Source of the DNA: Pelagicoccus sp.
GTDB lineage: Bacteria > Verrucomicrobiota > Verrucomicrobiia > Opitutales > Opitutaceae
DNA length: 48,482 bases
Direction: 5' to 3'
Assembly: GCA_028284635.1 (NCBI GenBank)
Contig: JANQRJ010000074.1
Span: 1 to 48,482 of the forward strand
A program made the position numbers and the translations under genes. Within the stretch, counting starts at the first letter, position 1, and each line of letters begins with the position of its first letter. Below the pieces are notes generated by a model. The model searched no databases. It had not been told where the DNA came from and saw nothing but the letters and a program-made list of their open reading frames with translations. Of the stretch, positions 12,300 through 29,370 are shown piece after piece.

Positions 12300-12549
12300 G
12301 TGTCGTGTCATCCATGAAACGTAGCGTGGATCCCGCAGAGCGGGACCGCGTCCGCATCGTTTCTTATCCTCATCATCTTCTTTATCCTCATCTTCATCCT
12401 GGCTGAGATGAGGATGAGTATGAAGATGAAGATGAAGATGAAGATGACGATGACGATGACGAGGGGGATGATGGGGGTGCACTGCGGACGCGGTCCCGCT
12501 CTGCGGGATCCGCGCTACTCTTTGCGACATTGTACCCGTGACACGGCAC
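12300..12549. repeat. Large nested inverted repeat (REPIN-like, hexamer core)
   Basis: There are three nested layers. Outer ends GTGTCGTGTCA (12300-12310) and TGACACGGCAC (12539-12549) pair at 10 of 11 positions. Middle arms 12321-12356 and 12483-12518 are 36 bases with one mismatch; each begins GTAGCG(C/T)GGATCCC and contains a TCCCGC/GCGGGA hairpin. The core is pyrimidine-rich hexamers on the left and GATGAA/GATGAC hexamers on the right. The same outer ends and layering, with different middle arms, occur at 24950-25145. Confidence 0.8.
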
Positions 12550-17968: not shown

Positions 17969-18817
17969 ATGCTCACCCGAACTCTTGCCACAGCTCTCAT
18001 CGCCCTCAGTTCTAGCTTCGCTGTCCAAGCCCAGCTCGAAACGCCCGCCGCCAGTCCCCGCTCCGTGCTCAAGCAGACCGTCGGCCTGACAGAGGTCGAA
18101 ATCGACTACTCCCGCCCCGGCGTCAAGGACCGTCAGATCTTCGGCTCCCTCGTTCCTTTTGGCGAAGTCTGGCGAACCGGAGCCAATTCCCCCACCAAGA
18201 TTTCCTTCAGCGACGACGTCACTCTCGGTGGCGCGGCCGTGCCTGCTGGCGTCTATGCTCTTTATACGATTCCCGGCGAGAGCGAGTGGACCATCATTAT
18301 ATACACGACCACTGATCAGTGGGGAGCCTACGGGTACGATCAATCCAAGGACCTGGTCCGCTTCGTCGCTCCCGTCAGCGAGCTCGCCCAAAGCGTGGAA
18401 AGCTTCACTATCGGGATCGACTATCTGCGCAACGATTCCGCCACCGTTCACCTCGATTGGGCGAATACCCGAGTCGCCTTTCCACTCGAGGTGCCGACCA
18501 GCCAGAAGGTCCTCTCGCAAATCGACGAGCTGCAAGGCACGCCCGAGTTCCAAAAACCCGGTACGCTCTTCGCTGCTGGAAGCTACTACCACGAGTCCGG
18601 CAAGGATCTCGAACAGGCCCTCGAATGGGTGAGCGAAGCCTGTGAAAAACGGAAAGACCCCGCTTTCTGGATGTTCGCCCGCAAGGCCCGCATCGAAGTC
18701 GACCTCGGCTTGACCGATGCCGCCCGTTCCTCCGCCGAACGAACCCTCGAGCTCGCCACCGCAGCCCGCAATCGCGACTACCAGAAAATCGCCAACGACA
18801 TTCTCGCCTCGTTGTAG
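17969..18817 (+). CDS. DUF2911 family secreted protein
   Basis: This 282-residue protein begins with a signal peptide (MLTRTLATALIALSSSFAVQ, cleavage after about residue 21). The DUF2911 core follows: EIDYSRPGVKDRQIFGSLVP, FGEVWRTGANSPTKI, AGVYALYTIPG and the WGAYGYDQSKD region. A helical C-terminal third resembles a tetratricopeptide-like tail (residues 190-280). The biochemical role of the family is unknown; it is probably periplasmic. The frame is open further upstream to 17738, but that part has no family similarity and the signal peptide fixes ATG 17969. It is followed by a 9-bp-period repeat and the PIG-L gene. Confidence 0.85.
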   Translation: MLTRTLATALIALSSSFAVQAQLETPAASPRSVLKQTVGLTEVEIDYSRPGVKDRQIFGSLVPFGEVWRTGANSPTKISFSDDVTLGGAAVPAGVYALYTIPGESEWTIIIYTTTDQWGAYGYDQSKDLVRFVAPVSELAQSVESFTIGIDYLRNDSATVHLDWANTRVAFPLEVPTSQKVLSQIDELQGTPEFQKPGTLFAAGSYYHESGKDLEQALEWVSEACEKRKDPAFWMFARKARIEVDLGLTDAARSSAERTLELATAARNRDYQKIANDILASL

Positions 18818-18936: not shown

Positions 18937-21426
18937 ATGAACCGCCTTTCCTCGACCCTCGCTCTGCTCGCTGCCGCATCTCTCTCCGCCTCGCCCATCT
19001 CGCCTCCCGTGCCGCGTTCCAGTTCCGAGATCCTTTGGTATATCCAAAAATTGGATACTCTCGGCAAGGTTCTCTATGTCGCCGCCCATCCCGATGACGA
19101 AAACACCGCTCTCATCTCCTATCTCTCGCTAGGAGAGAAGTACGATACCGCCTACTTGTCCCTCACTCGTGGCGATGGCGGACAGAATCTCATCGGCAAG
19201 GAGCTGCGCGACGCCCTTGGAGTCATCCGCACGCAGGAGTTGCTTGCCGCTCGTCGCCTGGATGGCGGGCGTCAGTTCTTCACTCGGGCCAAGGACTTCG
19301 GCTTTTCCAAGCATCCCGACGAAACCCTTCGCATCTGGGATAAGGAAGCTGTGCTGGCCGACACCGTCTGGGTTATCCGCAACTTTCGGCCCGACATCAT
19401 CATCACTCGTTTTTCGCCCGAGCCCGGCTTTACCCACGGCCACCATACCGCTTCCACCCTGCTCGCCCTCGAAGCCTTCGAAGCGGCTGCTGATCCGGCC
19501 CGCTTTCCAGAGCAGTTGGAGTTCGTCGAGCCCTGGCAAGCCAAGCGCGTCGTTTGGAATGCCAGCAGCTTCTTCTTCCGCCGATCCGGCCAGATCTTTG
19601 ACGAGAGCCAGTATCTCAAGCTCGATGCAGGCGGCTACGAACCCCTGCTCGGCAAGTCCTTCAACGAAATAGCCTCCGCCAGTCGCAGCCAGCACCGTAG
19701 CCAAGGCTTTGGCTCCCGCATCGCTCGAGGCTCCCGTCCCGAGTACTTCAAGCTGCTGGCGGGCGAAGCCATGCAGGACAGCCTCTTCGATGGCGTCGAT
19801 ACGACTTGGAGTCGTGTTGAAAATTCGGATACGGTTCGTCGGAATATCCATACCCTGGCCGCTGCTTTCGATCCCACCGATCCTGCAGCTTCTCTGCCCA
19901 ACCTCATCGCCCTGCGTCGTTCCCTGTTGACCCTCGGCTCCAATCCCTGGGCTTTGGCCAAGTTGCGCGAGACCGATGCCATTATCGCTGACTGTCTCGG
20001 TCTGAATCTTCGCGCTCTGCTCGGTCAGCCCTATCTCCTGCCTGGCGAAAGCATGCCCGTAGCTCTAGAGGCCATCAATCGCTCCCCCGCTTCCGTTGCC
20101 ATCAAGAGCCTTCGCGTGCCAGTTGCCGACCTCGCTGCTGCGGTCGAACTAGTTTTGCCGGAGAACGAACGTATCGAAACTGCCATTACAGTGAGTTTTC
20201 CGCAGGACTTGCCTTTGCCTCAGCCCTATTGGCTCATCGAAGAGGGCACCTTAGGCATGTCCGCCGTTTCCGATTTGCAGCAGATCGGAAAGGCGGAGAA
20301 CGATCCGCCTATTCAAGTTCTGGCCACTGTCGAAGTAGAAGGAGAGTTCCTCGAATTCGCTCTGCCCTTGCAGCACAGCCGCGTCGATCCCGCCCAGGGC
20401 GAGATCGTGAGCGCCGTTCTCAATGTGCCTCCAGCCAGTGTGGAGTTCCTCGCTCCAGTCACTCTGTTTCCCAACTATCAAGCCCGATCCGTCGAGGTAC
20501 AGGTCGCCGCATCCACTCAGGCCATTGCTGGCGAGCTGCGACTCGACTTGCCGTTCGGATGGGAGGCTTCGCCCGCTTCTCACGAGGTCGAAGAGATCGC
20601 TCCTGGCGATTCGGGCGTATTCGCTTTTCGGATCACCCCGCCACAGGCTTCGGGCGAAGCCAGCCTCCTCGCCGTCTTCGAGACCGAAGGAAAAACGGTG
20701 AGCAAGTCGATGCAACGCATCCGCTACCCGCACATTCCAGAGCAGCTCGTCTTCGCCCCTGCAGTCACCCGGGCCGTCAGCCTGCAAGTCGCGAGGCGAG
20801 GAAACCGGGTCGGCTACCTGGCGGGAGCAGGAGATACCGTGGCAGAGAGCATTCGCGAGATCGGCTTCGAGGTTCGCGAGCTTTCGCCTGAGCAACTCCA
20901 GGCTGCTTCGCTTGAAGATCTGGACAGCGTAGTCATCGGTATCCGAGCCTACAATACAGTCGAGCAGATGGATCGCATCGCTCCGCTGCTCTTCGACTTT
21001 GCGGAAAGGGGCGGCACCGTGATAACCCAGTACAATACCTCCCGAGGACTGCAGTCCGAGAAATTCGCTCCTTATCCGTTGCGGCTTTCACGAGATCGTG
21101 TGACCGACGAAAACGCGGAAATGCGCATCCTAGCTCCAGGTCATCCCGTTGTGAATACGCCGAATAAGATCGGCCCCGAGGACTTCGAAGGCTGGACGCA
21201 AGAACGCGGCCTATATTTTCCGAGTTCCTGGGACGAGGCCTTCGTACCCATATTCTCCAGCAACGACCAAGGCGAACCGCCCCGCAACGGAAGCCTGCTG
21301 ATTGCCCGGCACGGCGAAGGCTACATCGTCTACACCGGCCTCTCCTGGTTTCGCCAACTGCCCGCCGGCGTACCGGGCGCCTACCGCATCTTCGCGAACC
21401 TTGTCTCTCTAGGCCATGAGGAGTAA
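18937..21426 (+). CDS. Large secreted PIG-L (LmbE-like) deacetylase
   Basis: This 829-residue protein has a signal peptide (about residues 1-19) followed by a PIG-L N-acetyl-sugar deacetylase domain with the zinc motif AAHPDDEN near residues 49-56 and FTHGHHTAS near 166-174. The middle (about 370-600) looks like beta-sandwich domains similar to those attached to glycoside hydrolases. The last 200 residues (VGYLAGAGDTVAESIREIG, VVIGIRAYNT) resemble a class I glutamine-amidotransferase-like fold without an obvious catalytic cysteine. A periplasmic role on acetylated sugars is inferred. It is distinct from the small cytoplasmic PIG-L at 24226. Confidence 0.85.
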   Translation: MNRLSSTLALLAAASLSASPISPPVPRSSSEILWYIQKLDTLGKVLYVAAHPDDENTALISYLSLGEKYDTAYLSLTRGDGGQNLIGKELRDALGVIRTQELLAARRLDGGRQFFTRAKDFGFSKHPDETLRIWDKEAVLADTVWVIRNFRPDIIITRFSPEPGFTHGHHTASTLLALEAFEAAADPARFPEQLEFVEPWQAKRVVWNASSFFFRRSGQIFDESQYLKLDAGGYEPLLGKSFNEIASASRSQHRSQGFGSRIARGSRPEYFKLLAGEAMQDSLFDGVDTTWSRVENSDTVRRNIHTLAAAFDPTDPAASLPNLIALRRSLLTLGSNPWALAKLRETDAIIADCLGLNLRALLGQPYLLPGESMPVALEAINRSPASVAIKSLRVPVADLAAAVELVLPENERIETAITVSFPQDLPLPQPYWLIEEGTLGMSAVSDLQQIGKAENDPPIQVLATVEVEGEFLEFALPLQHSRVDPAQGEIVSAVLNVPPASVEFLAPVTLFPNYQARSVEVQVAASTQAIAGELRLDLPFGWEASPASHEVEEIAPGDSGVFAFRITPPQASGEASLLAVFETEGKTVSKSMQRIRYPHIPEQLVFAPAVTRAVSLQVARRGNRVGYLAGAGDTVAESIREIGFEVRELSPEQLQAASLEDLDSVVIGIRAYNTVEQMDRIAPLLFDFAERGGTVITQYNTSRGLQSEKFAPYPLRLSRDRVTDENAEMRILAPGHPVVNTPNKIGPEDFEGWTQERGLYFPSSWDEAFVPIFSSNDQGEPPRNGSLLIARHGEGYIVYTGLSWFRQLPAGVPGAYRIFANLVSLGHEE

Positions 21427-21537: not shown

Positions 21538-21672
21538 ATGATTCAGCGAAACCCAGACTCCAAGAGCGATGATTCCTCATCCGTCAACTGGCCGCGCATC
21601 TACTGGCTGGTTGCTCTCTTCTTCTTCGTCCAAGTCGCGCTCTTCTACGCTTTCACGCGCTACTACTCGTGA
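21538..21672 (+). CDS. 44-residue membrane microprotein coupled to the symporter
   Basis: The short frame encodes a polar N-terminal region (MIQRNPDSKSDDSSSVNWPR) and one hydrophobic helix (about residues 21-38, YWLVALFFFVQVALFYAF), ending TRYYS. Its stop TGA (21670-21672) overlaps the GTG start of the sodium:solute symporter by four bases (GTGA), the usual sign of translational coupling. Codon use matches its neighbours. An accessory subunit of the symporter is inferred from position; small membrane proteins are known beside some sodium:solute symporters. No named family is recognised. Confidence 0.65.
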   Translation: MIQRNPDSKSDDSSSVNWPRIYWLVALFFFVQVALFYAFTRYYS

Positions 21673-23372
21673 GTCCTATCGACTATATCGTCCTCTTCGG
21701 CACCCTTCTGGGCATCGCGTTCTACGGAATGTGGCGCACTCGCGAGAGCGGGGGACTGAACAGCTATTTGCGGGGCGACGACTCGATCCGCTGGGGTACC
21801 ATTGGCCTCTCGGTCATGGCGACTCAAGCCAGCGCTATCACCTTCCTCTCTACTCCAGGCCAGGCATACGAGGACGGCATGGGCTTCGTGCAGAACTACT
21901 TCGGCATGCCCTTCGCCATCATTATCATCTGCCTCTTTTTCATTCCCATCTACCGGCGGCTGAAGGTGTATACAGCCTACGAATACCTGGGCCAGCGCTT
22001 CGATGCTAAAACCCGCTACCTCGGCGCGACGCTCTTTCTCGTACAGCGTGGTTTGGCCGCCGGCATCACCATCTACGCTCCGGCCATCATCGTATCCACT
22101 TTGTTGGGATGGAATCTCGATCTGACCATCGTATTGATTGGCGCTTTGGTGATCGCCTACACCGTGTCCGGCGGCACGAAAGCGGTCAGCATCACGCAAC
22201 GCTACCAGATGGGCATCATCCTGATCGGCATGGTCGTGGCCTTTGTCATGATTCTCCAGAACCTGCCGGGCGATGTCTCGGTGGGAGAGGCCGTCGCGGT
22301 GGCAGGCAAGCTTGGCAAGCTGGAAGCAGTGAGCTTTTCCTTCGATCTCGACCAGCGCTACACGTTCTGGTCCGGCCTTTTTGGCGGGCTTTTTCTTTCG
22401 CTCTCCTATTTCGGAACCGATCAGTCTCAAGTGCAGCGCTATCTGGCCGGCACGTCGCTTACGGCCAGCCGCATTGGCCTGCTCTTCAATGCGGTGGTGA
22501 AGATTCCGATGCAGTTTTTCATCCTGTTTGTCGGGGTGATGGTCTTCGTATTCTACATCTTCGAGAAGCCGCCGGTCATCTTCAATCAGACTCTCCTCGA
22601 TCAGGTTATGGAAACGGAGCAGGCGGAAGAGCTTTCCGTATTGGTTTCCGAATACGAGGAGGTCGCTCGGAACAGGGCCATGGCAGCGAAGTCGCTCGCC
22701 ATCGCTTTGCGGAACGAAGACCCAGCCGCGATCGAAGCGGCCAGGTCTGTGGCGTTGGAATGGGAGGCCCAGTCTTTGGCCAAGCGCCAGGATACCAAGG
22801 AGCTTGTCCTAACGGCTTTGCCCGATGCGGAGGTGAAGGACTCCGACTACGTTTTCATAAGCTTCATCTTGAAATACCTGCCGCATGGCGTGATCGGCCT
22901 GCTCGTCGCAGTGATCTTCGCTGCAGCCATGTCTTCCACTGCCTCCGAGCTAAACGCTCTCGGCTCCACGACCATGGTGGATTTCTACCGTCGGCTGGTC
23001 CATGACGAAGGTTCGGATGCTCATTATGTAAGGGTTTCTCGGATACTGACCACCGCTTGGGGAGTTATCGCGGTAGGCTTTGCTCTCTACGCGAATCTGG
23101 TGGAGAATCTGATCGAGGCGGTGAACATTCTAGGCTCGATCTTCTATGGCGGGATACTAGGCATCTTCCTGGTCGCGTTTTTTCTCAAGCGGGTCAAAGG
23201 CAGTGCGGTGTTTACGGCGGCTATCATTTCCCAGATCGCAGTGCTGACCATGTTCTACACGCTGGAGATCAGCTATCTCTGGTACAATCTGATCGGCTGT
23301 TTCACGGTGATCAGCCTGGCGTTGCTTTTGCAGGTTACGGTCTTTCGGTCGTGGGAGGAAGCGGAGCGATGA
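21669..23372 (+). CDS. Sodium:solute symporter (SSS family)
   Basis: This 567-residue transporter has about 13-14 predicted helices and SSS hallmarks: GTIGLSVMATQASAITFLS in the first core helix, the RRLKVYTAYEYLGQRFD loop, GGTKAVSITQRYQMG, and SLSYFGTDQSQVQRYL. It imports an unidentified organic solute with sodium. A long charged loop (about residues 305-385) is unusual. The start is GTG 21669, overlapping the microprotein stop; its own stop overlaps the next ATG as ATGA (23369-23372). Three genes are thus translationally linked, which suggests a functional connection with thiol metabolism downstream. Confidence 0.9.
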   Translation: MSPIDYIVLFGTLLGIAFYGMWRTRESGGLNSYLRGDDSIRWGTIGLSVMATQASAITFLSTPGQAYEDGMGFVQNYFGMPFAIIIICLFFIPIYRRLKVYTAYEYLGQRFDAKTRYLGATLFLVQRGLAAGITIYAPAIIVSTLLGWNLDLTIVLIGALVIAYTVSGGTKAVSITQRYQMGIILIGMVVAFVMILQNLPGDVSVGEAVAVAGKLGKLEAVSFSFDLDQRYTFWSGLFGGLFLSLSYFGTDQSQVQRYLAGTSLTASRIGLLFNAVVKIPMQFFILFVGVMVFVFYIFEKPPVIFNQTLLDQVMETEQAEELSVLVSEYEEVARNRAMAAKSLAIALRNEDPAAIEAARSVALEWEAQSLAKRQDTKELVLTALPDAEVKDSDYVFISFILKYLPHGVIGLLVAVIFAAAMSSTASELNALGSTTMVDFYRRLVHDEGSDAHYVRVSRILTTAWGVIAVGFALYANLVENLIEAVNILGSIFYGGILGIFLVAFFLKRVKGSAVFTAAIISQIAVLTMFYTLEISYLWYNLIGCFTVISLALLLQVTVFRSWEEAER

Positions 23373-24136
23373 GCTCTCCGGTCATCTGTTTCGGCCAACA
23401 GCCTAGCGGCTTTTTTCCGAAACGCTTTCTTGTATCCAAATTTTGGACAGCCCAACGCTTGCAGCGAGATATTGGCGGCGAGATCGTGCTGTTCTACCAC
23501 GATAGCGATCACGATCCGCGTGAGACGACAACCAAGCTTGCCCACTTGAAGTCGGATCGTCTGGACTGCCTGAATTTCGCTTTCGCAAACAAGATCCAGA
23601 AGAAGTACTCCCCACTCTACGCGAAACGGGTGAGCCGGGACTGGCAGAAAAAACTGGTTCGCCAACTGCCGAACTACGTTTCCCCAGACTGTGTCGAGCT
23701 GTTCGCTTCGGTCGATTCAGACAATGTGGCTGACTTTTGCCTGGAGATGTATCGCGGCTTAGGCCTGCTCGAGGGGGTGCGTGTCGAGCGTTCCAGCGAT
23801 CCGCTTCTTCGAGGGCAGGCGATCGCGGTCGACGACTACTTCGTCGACGTGCCTTACGATGGCGAGATCGTAAGAGCTCGCAAGCATGGCGAAGGCTTTG
23901 CCCTTCACCAAGGAGGGGATTCGTATATCGAGATTCCAGTGGGAGAAGTGAAGAAGTGGCAGATCAGTCCCACGCGTGACACCCGATTGCGCTGGATGCA
24001 ATCCACGCTTGGCTGCACCCACTACGTGGCAGGAGCCAGCGAAATCCAGTATTTGAATACCGATGAAACTCCGGAAATCGAGTTTGTCGAACGCGATCCG
24101 ATCGACAGGCTAGACGAGGCATGGACAGGGAAATGA
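23369..24136 (+). CDS. Compact BshC-like protein (putative bacillithiol cysteine-adding enzyme)
   Basis: The 255-residue protein carries, in the right order, motifs of the bacillithiol ligase BshC: GQQ at residues 9-11, DHD at 47-49 with a following Glu52, and a C-terminal SPTRDTRLRWMQ (200-211) then YVAGASEIQY (219-228). The last resembles the SP-LRP-Q and YVGGPGEIAY segments of BshC. Usual BshC proteins are about 540 residues; here the long middle part and C-terminal coiled coil are missing. The next two genes are bshB and bshA, which supplies independent support. The start ATG overlaps the symporter stop. The assignment rests on motif reading and context, not on a search. Confidence 0.7.
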   Translation: MSSPVICFGQQPSGFFPKRFLVSKFWTAQRLQRDIGGEIVLFYHDSDHDPRETTTKLAHLKSDRLDCLNFAFANKIQKKYSPLYAKRVSRDWQKKLVRQLPNYVSPDCVELFASVDSDNVADFCLEMYRGLGLLEGVRVERSSDPLLRGQAIAVDDYFVDVPYDGEIVRARKHGEGFALHQGGDSYIEIPVGEVKKWQISPTRDTRLRWMQSTLGCTHYVAGASEIQYLNTDETPEIEFVERDPIDRLDEAWTGK

Positions 24137-24140
24137 AACA

Positions 24141-24215
24141 GGTAGGGACGGACCGCCGGGCCGTCCGCGGTGCAACAGGCATACTCTGCGGACGGCCCGG
24201 CGGTCCGTCCCTACC
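24141..24215. repeat. REPIN-like inverted repeat, GTAGGG type
   Basis: GGTAGGGACGGACCGCCGGG and on through GTCCGC (24141-24168) pairs perfectly over 28 bases with 24188-24215 across a 19-base loop. Each arm has a GTAG foot and a small CGGAC/GTCCG stem. It lies between the BshC-like gene and bshB, and could act as an mRNA stem or terminator. Confidence 0.8.
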
Positions 24216-24225
24216 TTAAGACACT

Positions 24226-24949: not shown

Positions 24950-25145
24950 TGTCGTGTCACGCTTGCCATGTAGCGCGGAGCTTTAGCCCGCGTCCGCGAT
25001 TCGCCCTTATCATCCCCCCTTCTCATCTTCATCCTCATTCCAGGATAATAGATGAGGATGAAGAAGATGATGAGGATAATGAAACGATGCGGACGCGGGC
25101 TAAAGCTCCGCGCTACGGATTGCGACATCCCATGAGTGACACGAT
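24950..25145. repeat. Large nested inverted repeat (REPIN-like, hexamer core)
   Basis: The outer TGTCGTGTCAC pairs with GTGACACGATA. The middle arms (24970-24997 and 25089-25116), starting GTAGCGCGGAGCTTTAGCCC, are a perfect 28-base pair. The core holds CATCTTCATCC-type hexamers facing GATGAGGATGAAGAAGATG. It has the same architecture as 12300-12549, including a shared TTGCGACAT box beside the right arm, but the middle-arm sequence is different. Confidence 0.8.
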
Positions 25146-26794: not shown

Positions 26795-28318
26795 ATGAGT
26801 GATATCGCCACTTCTCCGCTTCAGGACTACTTGTCCTCCCATTCCTCCGACGTAGAGCCGGCCATGGTTAGCTACCTGGCCAATCTCCAGCAGATCGCTG
26901 CGGTCAACCCTGCTATCGCTGCTTCCATTGTGCAGGAGCTCGAGGACCAGCGTAGCAATCTCAAGCTGATTGCTTCGGAAAACTACACCTCGCTCAACAC
27001 CCAGGCTGCCATGGGCAACCTCTTGACCGACAAGTACGCCGAAGGCTTCGCCGGAGCTCGCTACTACGCGGGTTGCGACAACATCGACGATATCGAGTCG
27101 GAAGCCTGCCGCCTGGCTTGCGAGCTGTTTGGCGCCGAGCATGCCTACGTGCAGCCGCACTCCGGGGCGGATGCGAATCTTATCGCTTTCTGGGCGATTC
27201 TCCAGGCGAGGGTCGGCGTCCCCACGCTCGAAGGTCTCGGCGAGGCGAATCCGGCTAAGCTCTCTCGCGAGGATTGGAACAAGGTTCGCGCTGCGATGGG
27301 CAACCAGCGTCTGCTTGGTCTCGACTACTACTCTGGCGGCCACCTCACGCACGGCTATCGTTTCAACGTTTCCGCTCAGTTCTTCGACGCCTACAGCTAT
27401 GCCGTCAGCGAGGAGACTGGCTTGCTCGATTACGATGAGCTCGAAAAGCAGGCTCTCGAGGTCAAGCCGCTGATCCTGCTTGCCGGTTACAGCGCGTACC
27501 CGCGCAAGGTGGACTTCCGCCGCATGAAGGAGATCGCTGACAAAGTGGGCGCCGTTTTCATGGTCGATATGGCCCATTTCGCTGGCCTTGTGGCTGGCGG
27601 CGTCTTCGAGGGGGATTTCAATCCCATGCCCTTTGCTGACGTGGTTACCTCGACTACGCACAAGACCCTGCGAGGTCCCCGTGGCGGCATCGTCCTCTGC
27701 AAGAAGGAGTACGCCGAATTTGTCGACAAAGGTTGCCCGTTGGTCATCGGCGGTCCGCTTCCCCACGTCATGGCCTCCAAGGCCGTTTCCTTCCAGGAGG
27801 CCCTGCGACCCGAGTTCAAGACCTATGCCGCTCGCGTGGCGGAAAACAGCCGCGCCATGGCCGAAGCGATGATTGCCGAAGGGCTCAACATCGTGACTGG
27901 TGGCACGGACAATCATCTGCTGCTCATCGACGTGACCGGCTTTGGTCTCAACGGCCGCCAAGCGGAAGCTGCCGTGCGCGAGGCCGGCGTGACCCTCAAC
28001 CGGAATTCCCTGCCTTTCGACCCAAATGGTCCGCACTACACGAGCGGTCTGCGCGTCGGAGCTCCGGCGGTAACGTCGCTTGGTATGGGTCCGGAGCAGA
28101 TGAAGGAGATCGCCGCGATTTTCAAACTCATCCTCTCCAACACCAAACCTGCTACCATCGCCTCGGGCAAAAACGCCGGCAAGCAAAGCAAGGTGAAGTA
28201 CGATTTGCCTGCTGGCGTGATCGAGGAAGCCCGTGCCCGGGTGAAGGCTTTGCTCGACCGGTTCGTGCTCTATCCCGAGCTCGATCTGGACTTCTTGAAA
28301 GCCAGCTTCGGCGCCTAA
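26795..28318 (+). CDS. glyA: Serine hydroxymethyltransferase, long form
   Basis: GlyA interconverts serine and glycine with tetrahydrofolate. The 507-residue PLP enzyme shows LKLIASENYTS, the PLP-lysine motif TSTTHKTLRGPRGG and the VDMAHFAGLVAGG region. Between about residues 130 and 180 there is an extra segment (VGVPTLEGLGEANPAKLS, then HLTHGYRF) absent from the usual 415-residue enzyme. A comparable insertion occurs in chlamydial and related GlyA, supporting the PVC assignment. The ATG at 26795 is preceded by a repeat-rich leader. No glycine riboswitch was recognised. Confidence 0.95.
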   Translation: MSDIATSPLQDYLSSHSSDVEPAMVSYLANLQQIAAVNPAIAASIVQELEDQRSNLKLIASENYTSLNTQAAMGNLLTDKYAEGFAGARYYAGCDNIDDIESEACRLACELFGAEHAYVQPHSGADANLIAFWAILQARVGVPTLEGLGEANPAKLSREDWNKVRAAMGNQRLLGLDYYSGGHLTHGYRFNVSAQFFDAYSYAVSEETGLLDYDELEKQALEVKPLILLAGYSAYPRKVDFRRMKEIADKVGAVFMVDMAHFAGLVAGGVFEGDFNPMPFADVVTSTTHKTLRGPRGGIVLCKKEYAEFVDKGCPLVIGGPLPHVMASKAVSFQEALRPEFKTYAARVAENSRAMAEAMIAEGLNIVTGGTDNHLLLIDVTGFGLNGRQAEAAVREAGVTLNRNSLPFDPNGPHYTSGLRVGAPAVTSLGMGPEQMKEIAAIFKLILSNTKPATIASGKNAGKQSKVKYDLPAGVIEEARARVKALLDRFVLYPELDLDFLKASFGA

Positions 28319-28440: not shown

Positions 28441-29220
28441 ATGTCGGATTCCGATCTTCTTGCTATCACCTCCCGCTTCGTTCGCGGGCGCAACACGCTG
28501 TTCGCCCAGGCGGACTTCGGTCCGCTCTATCTGGACTACTATCTCCATCTCAAGGATAACCAGCTCGACCTTCCGGAGCCTGCCGACGAGCGCCTGAAAG
28601 CTGCCTTGGCCCTTTTCGCCCTGCACTGCGTGGCTCGCCCTCGGAATGATATTCTCGCTTGGACCATCAATTTCCAGGAGCCGCTGCTGAACCTCTTTCT
28701 TGCCGGCGATACCGGCACAGGTGACGTGGTCGGCCGAGCCTATACCGAAGGCGTCAAGGAGTCCTCGGAAAATGCCTTCTACCAGGATCTGGTCCGCCGC
28801 GGCCGAGACCCGCACCGTTCGGTGGTCGGTTTCCAGGGAGGCGACGTGATCAAGGCGGTGGAAACTTTCTACGAATTCAGCGAGCAGCGCCCGGCCCGCT
28901 TTTTCCAGCTCGAGCCCGATGTTTTTGCCGTCGTCGCTGCCCATCCCGACTACGACGAGGAATGGTTCAAGAATCTCTCGATCGAAGACGTGCGTTCGCT
29001 GAGCGCTACCGAGGAGATCGTGGACTTGGAAAAGCGTGTTGTGCGTTGGCGCTGCGGCTGCAATCAGTCCCGCATTCTCGGCGCTCTCGCTCCTGTATAC
29101 CAGGCTGACCCGCAAGAGCTCTTTCTTGGAGAGGAACTCATAGAGGTCAATTGCCCTCGCTGCGCCGGCAAGCATCGAGTCTCTCAAGAGATGCTCGAAG
29201 CCTACCTTGCCGACCACTGA
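28441..29220 (+). CDS. hslO: Hsp33-type redox-regulated chaperone
   Basis: This 259-residue protein ends with the Hsp33 zinc centre: CGC near residue 204 and CPRC near residue 240, spaced as in the CXC...CXXC family pattern, followed by HRVSQEMLEAYL. The N-terminal domain with FVRGRNTLFAQADFGPLY and the segment around residue 90 fit the Hsp33 fold, though they are divergent. In known Hsp33, oxidation releases zinc and exposes a holdase surface. Its closeness to a bacillithiol locus suggests a redox-stress neighbourhood. The hexamer hairpin ends 13 bases before its ATG. Confidence 0.85.
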   Translation: MSDSDLLAITSRFVRGRNTLFAQADFGPLYLDYYLHLKDNQLDLPEPADERLKAALALFALHCVARPRNDILAWTINFQEPLLNLFLAGDTGTGDVVGRAYTEGVKESSENAFYQDLVRRGRDPHRSVVGFQGGDVIKAVETFYEFSEQRPARFFQLEPDVFAVVAAHPDYDEEWFKNLSIEDVRSLSATEEIVDLEKRVVRWRCGCNQSRILGALAPVYQADPQELFLGEELIEVNCPRCAGKHRVSQEMLEAYLADH

Positions 29221-29230
29221 ACGCTTTTCC

Positions 29231-29370
29231 CGTAGCGCGGAGCTTCAGCCCGTGGCCAAACTATCTTCATCTTCTTCTACTTCTGCTTCTTCTTCTAATT
29301 CATAATTTTGAAGCAGAAGCAGAAGCAGAAGCAGAAGCAGAAGCAGAAGCAGAAGCAGATGAAGATTCTG
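29231..29370. repeat. Hexamer hairpin with (AAGCAG)8 and a GTAGCGCGG half-arm
   Basis: The element starts with GTAGCGCGGAGCTTCAGCCC (29232), the arm type of 24950, but no facing arm is seen. It continues with CTTCTT/CTTCTG hexamers, then eight exact tandem copies of AAGCAG at 29311-29358. Read through, the tandem would encode a run of Glu-Ala or Leu, which explains a long spurious frame. The unequal arms suggest recent expansion of one side. Confidence 0.75.

Follow-up and report, generated by a model that had tools for sequence, protein, structure and literature searches.

Can a protein of half the usual size carry out the cysteine-adding step of a bacillithiol-type pathway? BshC completes the synthesis of bacillithiol, a cell-protecting thiol, by adding cysteine, and the question is raised by a short BshC-like gene in a 48,482-nt stretch of DNA from Pelagicoccus sp., the whole of which is referred to here as the window. 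The gene is a single open frame encoding 255 residues plus a stop codon, and its ATG shares four bases (ATGA, 23369-23372) with the stop of the symporter gene upstream (Table 1). A sequence-only reading of this DNA had described the product as a half-size, minimal BshC encoded beside bshB and bshA, recognised by four BshC-type motifs. All four were found at the residues given there, each occurring once: GQQ at 9-11, DHD at 47-49, SPTRDTRLRWMQ at 200-211 and YVAGASEIQY at 219-228. The two genes downstream were assigned as BshB1-like and BshA by family models, in agreement with the location described, and the half size was confirmed by comparison with five full BshC proteins of 521-554 residues.

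Table 1. Coordinates of the short bshC gene and the neighbouring genes in the window
Feature	Position	Strand	Evidence
DUF2911 protein, head of conserved neighbourhood	17969..18817	+	PF11138 4.3e-55
829-aa PIG-L protein, Mca-like N-terminal domain	18937..21426	+	PF02585 5.6e-15; TIGR03446 (Mca) 1.1e-14, below cut-off
Sodium:solute symporter (SSF)	21669..23372	+	PF00474 5.3e-39
Short BshC-like protein, 255 aa, limited to the Rossmann core; proposed to add cysteine	23369..24136	+	Frame, family, profile, fold
BshB1-like PIG-L deacetylase, 234 aa	24226..24930	+	PF02585 1.8e-21; TIGR04001 1.1e-39, 136.4 bits vs cut-off 182.5
BshA, N-acetyl-glucosaminyl L-malate synthase, 377 aa	25202..26335	+	TIGR03999 1.1e-111, 373.5 bits vs cut-off 273.7

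The window protein matched no model in Pfam or NCBIfam at E <= 10, PF10079 and TIGR03998 included, and no PDB entry by sequence, and its homology was therefore tested by other routes. Relatives were detected by tblastn in 30 of 57 close genomes, a count that includes its own genome and one contig-end fragment. In genome_contigs, 302 stretches fitted a pattern and 153 encoded a relative, indicating that the frame is not a product of chance. The best 80 of the 153 were kept as named loci; they were mostly labelled Opitutae or other Verrucomicrobia, including Pelagicoccus and Coraliomargarita, together with a few MAG labels of Cyanobacteria, Melainabacteria, Armatimonadetes, Proteobacteria and Phycisphaeraceae, which may be naming or binning errors. 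The family alignment comprised 86 distinct members, namely the window protein and 85 of 87 non-redundant relatives, without L088 and L103 (longer matches); L031 was a fragment at the end of a contig, and L002 matched by chance. The 85 relatives were 56-71% identical to the window protein, and 47 columns of the alignment were invariant. G9, Q10, Q11, K24, D47, H48, R203, R206, Y219, G222, E225 and Y228 were present in all 86 members, as were H44, D45, C216 and H218, and D49 was present in 85. A strict zinc site at C13 is not claimed, because three of the 86 members, the window protein among them, have serine there.

Comparison of the family profile with 35 BshC proteins by hhalign gave a probability of 96.5% (E 7.2e-10, residues 4-230). 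The score was 75.8, whereas 200 column shuffles reached at most 25.0, 100 shuffles of 20-column blocks at most 38.9, and the reversed profile scored 15.7, so that the proposed kinship with BshC was borne out by a significant profile match. The 35 BshC sequences, of which two were verrucomicrobial, three came from annotated plasmids and 30 from the phylum of genome G332, probably Planctomycetota, were taken from the open frames surrounding blastp matches and had 384 to 590 residues, with GQQ in 34 of them. A smaller profile test with five BshC (521-554 residues) gave a probability of 22%. In the global hhalign alignment, residues 1-255 of the short form were paired with residues 86-385 of the BshC of L112, one of two verrucomicrobial full-BshC genomes, over 248 aligned columns. 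The consensuses of the short form and BshC had 21 residues in common, which were G9, Q10, Q11, K24, T27, A28, L31, V40, position 41 (F in both), D47, H48, D49, E52, G136, F158, S200, R206, G222, E225, Y228 and R242. When the 86 members were scanned singly, PF10079 was matched weakly by eight (best 7.8e-6) and TIGR03998 by 11 (best 1.8e-4), both tallies being of E values, without scores against the family cut-offs; these were the families matched by most members in Pfam and NCBIfam, respectively. A sequence search of the PDB with the family profile returned no BshC, only a response regulator at E 0.77.

The predicted structure pointed to the same family. The AlphaFold2 model of the short BshC was confident (pLDDT 95.7, pTM 0.92), and its sole PDB match by Foldseek at E <= 1e-3 was the B. 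subtilis BshC 4wbd (E 4.4e-10, probability 1.00), with a TM score of 0.68 by query length and 0.35 by target length, an rmsd of 5.5 A and 13% identity. The next matches were class I aminoacyl-tRNA synthetases, starting with glutamyl-tRNA synthetases at E 7.2e-3 and including GlnRS and TyrRS. These enzymes have the broad fold in common with the short BshC, but they matched only at E 7.2e-3 or worse and, like the rest of the PDB, were not matched by the window protein in sequence. Judged from the profile and the model, the short BshC is a BshC homologue reduced to its Rossmann core. By strict membership it is not a standard BshC, as it has no coiled coil and the window protein has no match to a curated model.

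The sequence-only reading had listed a middle insertion and the C-terminal coiled coil as the missing parts. The global alignment upheld the absence of the whole coiled coil, whereas the middle was shortened by about 50 residues and not wholly absent, and the N-terminal 80-90 residues of BshC, beyond that list, were also gone. The full BshC of L112 is matched by PF10079 over residues 9-364 and by the coiled-coil model PF24850 over 366-518; the short-form frame stops where the BshC core stops. CC_BshC (PF24850) was present in all four full BshC scanned, and was found neither in the window protein nor among the 15 families listed for the 86 members. The short form is like BshC (PF10079 + PF24850; TIGR03998; 4wbd) in the order GQQ, K, DHD, R, GxxExxY and terminal R, in the predicted core fold, in the C-B-A operon place and in its partner BshA. 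It differs in its length, in these missing or shortened parts, in the lack of a curated-model match for the window protein, and in the family-wide H44, D45, C216 and H218. At the corresponding positions of the BshC rows readable by the motif script, H44 was found in 2/24, D45 in 0/24, C216 in 0/20 and H218 in 0/20, two of the 20 readings being doubtful.

A 2015 review reports the BshC coiled coil as required for dimerisation, describes ADP in a second pocket, and notes that no in vitro activity of BshC had by then been demonstrated (PMC4360819). The reported need for the coiled coil would favour a two-part BshC, in which the short protein is one half and another gene supplies the coiled coil. 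CC_BshC was found in none of the 27 distinct window proteins scanned, a subset of the frames that included those of the operon and was searched at differing thresholds, and we consider such a split very unlikely. The reduced core is instead predicted to work without a coiled coil.

The gene neighbourhood was conserved on both sides. Among the best 80 of the 153 loci, with each gene counted only where the flank sufficed, the genes downstream of the short bshC were bshB (75/77) and bshA (69/70), and the upstream genes were the symporter (66/72), the 829-aa PIG-L gene (56/63) and DUF2911 (52/61). The N-terminus of the 829-aa protein appeared signal-peptide-like by eye, and the DUF2911 frame can also be read from 17738. 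At L035 and L046, the short bshC was followed by bshA, and no bshB-like gene was found in the stretch examined. For comparison, we picked 13 full-BshC loci by hand out of 108 BshC-positive genomes (2 + 106), two of them verrucomicrobial and 11 belonging to the G332 phylum, and examined stretches of 10-18 kb. The order BshC-BshB-BshA was observed at 12 of them, and the stretch of the 13th yielded no BshB or BshA. This common order indicated that the short form sits in the slot of the full form. The symporter and the large PIG-L protein were found at none of the 13 loci within these stretches, suggesting that the upstream pair is special to the sampled short-form operons, where it may salvage thiol fragments or conjugates. 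The same pair would suit a BshC relative that has been taken over for a different ligation, BshA and BshB then serving another purpose. Against this, the BshA-positive genomes of our sample divide exactly into carriers of the short form and carriers of the full form, as described below, and we consider this reading very unlikely.

Several other features of the window were recorded. Between the short bshC and bshB, at 24140-24216, there is a perfect 29-nt inverted repeat whose arms are 19 nt apart; a 19-nt part of it had no further match in the window with up to three mismatches allowed. This repeat could be a palindromic mobile element, or else a hairpin resembling an attenuator. A different perfect inverted repeat of 28 nt, with 91 nt between its arms, lies between bshB and bshA (24970-25116) and encloses a 16-nt purine/pyrimidine inverted repeat (94%). 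The frame at 28441-29220 encodes a protein with a C-terminal stretch like that of HSP33, a redox-regulated chaperone (PF01430 7.3e-9), and the gene upstream of it (26795-28318) resembles serine hydroxymethyltransferase by eye. Hexamer tandem arrays were located at 29310-29359 (GAAGCA, 8.3 copies, 100% matches) and at 12406-12471 (AGATGA, nine copies, 89% matches, readable as an 18-mer too).

The distribution of the two forms was examined in an even sample of 288 genomes of the phylum. Of these, 19 had BshA over the cut-off, 17 the short form and two full BshC, and comparison of the lists showed that the 19 were exactly the 17 short-form and the two full-BshC genomes, with no overlap. The probability of a 17-in-19 match by random placement was 1.5e-25, a value that ignores kinship and from which no significance is taken. 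As 14 of the short-form genomes belong to one family and three to two others, the profile does not represent 17 independent events. The genome of the window itself was checked for a separate full-length bshC, and none was found in the assembly, which is 96% complete. The short form appears to take the place of full-size BshC in many Verrucomicrobia. Since the BshA-positive genomes are made up of the short-form and full-BshC genomes, it is very probably the cysteine-adding step of a bacillithiol-type pathway, filling the step that would otherwise be missing in these bacteria. Homology, the predicted fold, the place in the operon and the phylogenetic profile all support the idea of a minimal BshC that could define the catalytic core.

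In 199 genomes of the phylum of G332 (loci L133-L162), full BshC was found in 106, BshA in 104 (103 over the cut-off) and the short form in one; BshA and BshC occurred together in 101, BshA only in three (one with the short form) and BshC only in five. The sole short-form genome, G332 itself, carries BshA but lacks full BshC. This is consistent with gene transfer, although the MAG contig may be a contaminant. In G523 and G525, which have BshA and no PF10079 match, no short form was found by profile or by tblastn of stretches. Full-length BshC is thus common in this phylum, probably Planctomycetota, which a 2018 paper also lists among the lineages without a predicted thiol (PMC6282198). A methyltransferase-like frame was also seen just before bshC in both verrucomicrobial full-BshC genomes (L112:738-1496 and L113:699-1496). 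The best PDB match of the L112 frame was 9ri2 (3.8e-26), identified as C. tepidum NmbA, the N-methyl-bacillithiol synthase (PMC12719100), and the L112 genome may thus make N-methyl-bacillithiol.

The explanation that we favour, and hold to be highly likely on the combined sequence and model evidence, is that a reduced BshC core completes the BshA-BshB pathway to give bacillithiol or a very close product. BshA would join GlcNAc to malate, BshB would take the acetyl group off, and the short BshC would couple cysteine to the freed amine of GlcN-malate. MshC ligates cysteine to a glucosamine amine, and both MshC and CysRS are class I aminoacyl-tRNA-synthetase-like ligases. By analogy with these enzymes, the cysteine would probably be activated with ATP and then attacked by the sugar amine. 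The pocket for the activation is predicted to be formed by the GQQ and HDSDHD loops, K24, R203/R206 and the CTHYxAGxxExxY segment.

The bacillithiol disulfide reductase YpdA (TIGR04018) was found over the cut-off in 0/17 short-form and 2/2 full-BshC genomes, with matches below the cut-off, in longer frames, in two short-form genomes (G093 and G102). The bacilliredoxin BrxA/B (PF06491) was found in 0/17 short-form, 2/2 full-BshC and 0/20 BshA-negative genomes. Both results speak against plain bacillithiol. Of three control genomes with BshC and BshA, all had YpdA, and two, Thermus and Deinobacterium, had no detectable BrxA/B. BrxA/B is a poor marker for this reason, and YpdA, found in both of these controls, is a better one.

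These absences are compatible with, and do not prove, a variant thiol, for which the short BshC would ligate an amino acid, be it cysteine or a different one, to GlcN-malate or to a glycoside related to it, the resulting cousin of bacillithiol being recycled by other reductases. H44, D45, C216 and H218, invariant in the family and mostly or wholly absent from the readable BshC rows, point the same way. So does the BshA tree, in which the BshA of the sampled short-form operons fell on one side of a branch from the rows labelled full (100/100, 34 rows); the tree held 34 of 39 intended sequences, as a motif filter dropped L166, L167, L168, L170 and L177, and the label 'full' of row F_L169 is wrong, its genome having no PF10079 match. 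The BshB proteins of five short-form operons were also scanned, and all five scored below the TIGR04001 cut-off. The missing YpdA and BrxA/B, the separate BshA branch and the four family-wide residues thus make a variant thiol, or a different reductase, conceivable. The absence of BrxA/B says little in view of the controls, however, and the window BshA is strongly similar to solved BshA proteins in the PDB (4.7e-84), which favours the same GlcNAc-malate product in the first step. We consider a variant thiol unlikely and continue to prefer bacillithiol or a very close product.

A more far-reaching form of the idea, which we regard as unlikely, is that half-size ligases form a self-contained lineage by which Verrucomicrobia make a new bacillithiol-like thiol, with cysteine-pocket chemistry and recycling of their own. 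H44, D45, C216 and H218 would then possibly form a metal site as in CysRS and MshC. Outside the cytoplasm, the secreted-looking PIG-L protein would split a cleavable part off the thiol or off conjugates of it; the symporter would carry this part back in, and the short BshC would re-join cysteine.

The BshC, BshA and BshB pathway is already known, and the short BshC family appears to have been previously unrecognised. No short BshC was described among the matches listed in our search of the open-licence literature on bacillithiol, BshC and Verrucomicrobia thiols. Homologues of BshA and BshC identified by InterPro have been reported in archaea, with no mention of a short form in the sections concerned (PMC7278568). 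A 2025 pathway survey required similar length, more than 80% coverage and more than 25% identity, criteria that would probably exclude a half-size BshC, and Verrucomicrobia are not mentioned in its main text (PMC12719100). A 2018 paper placed Verrucomicrobia among the lineages for which no low-molecular-weight thiol was documented or predicted (PMC6282198). As a small BshC relative appears to replace the full-size enzyme in the present sample, these Verrucomicrobia probably make bacillithiol or a close cousin. The short BshC family would thus predict which Verrucomicrobia make a bacillithiol-type thiol, and a natural 255-residue core without a coiled coil would make the catalytic part of BshC directly testable.
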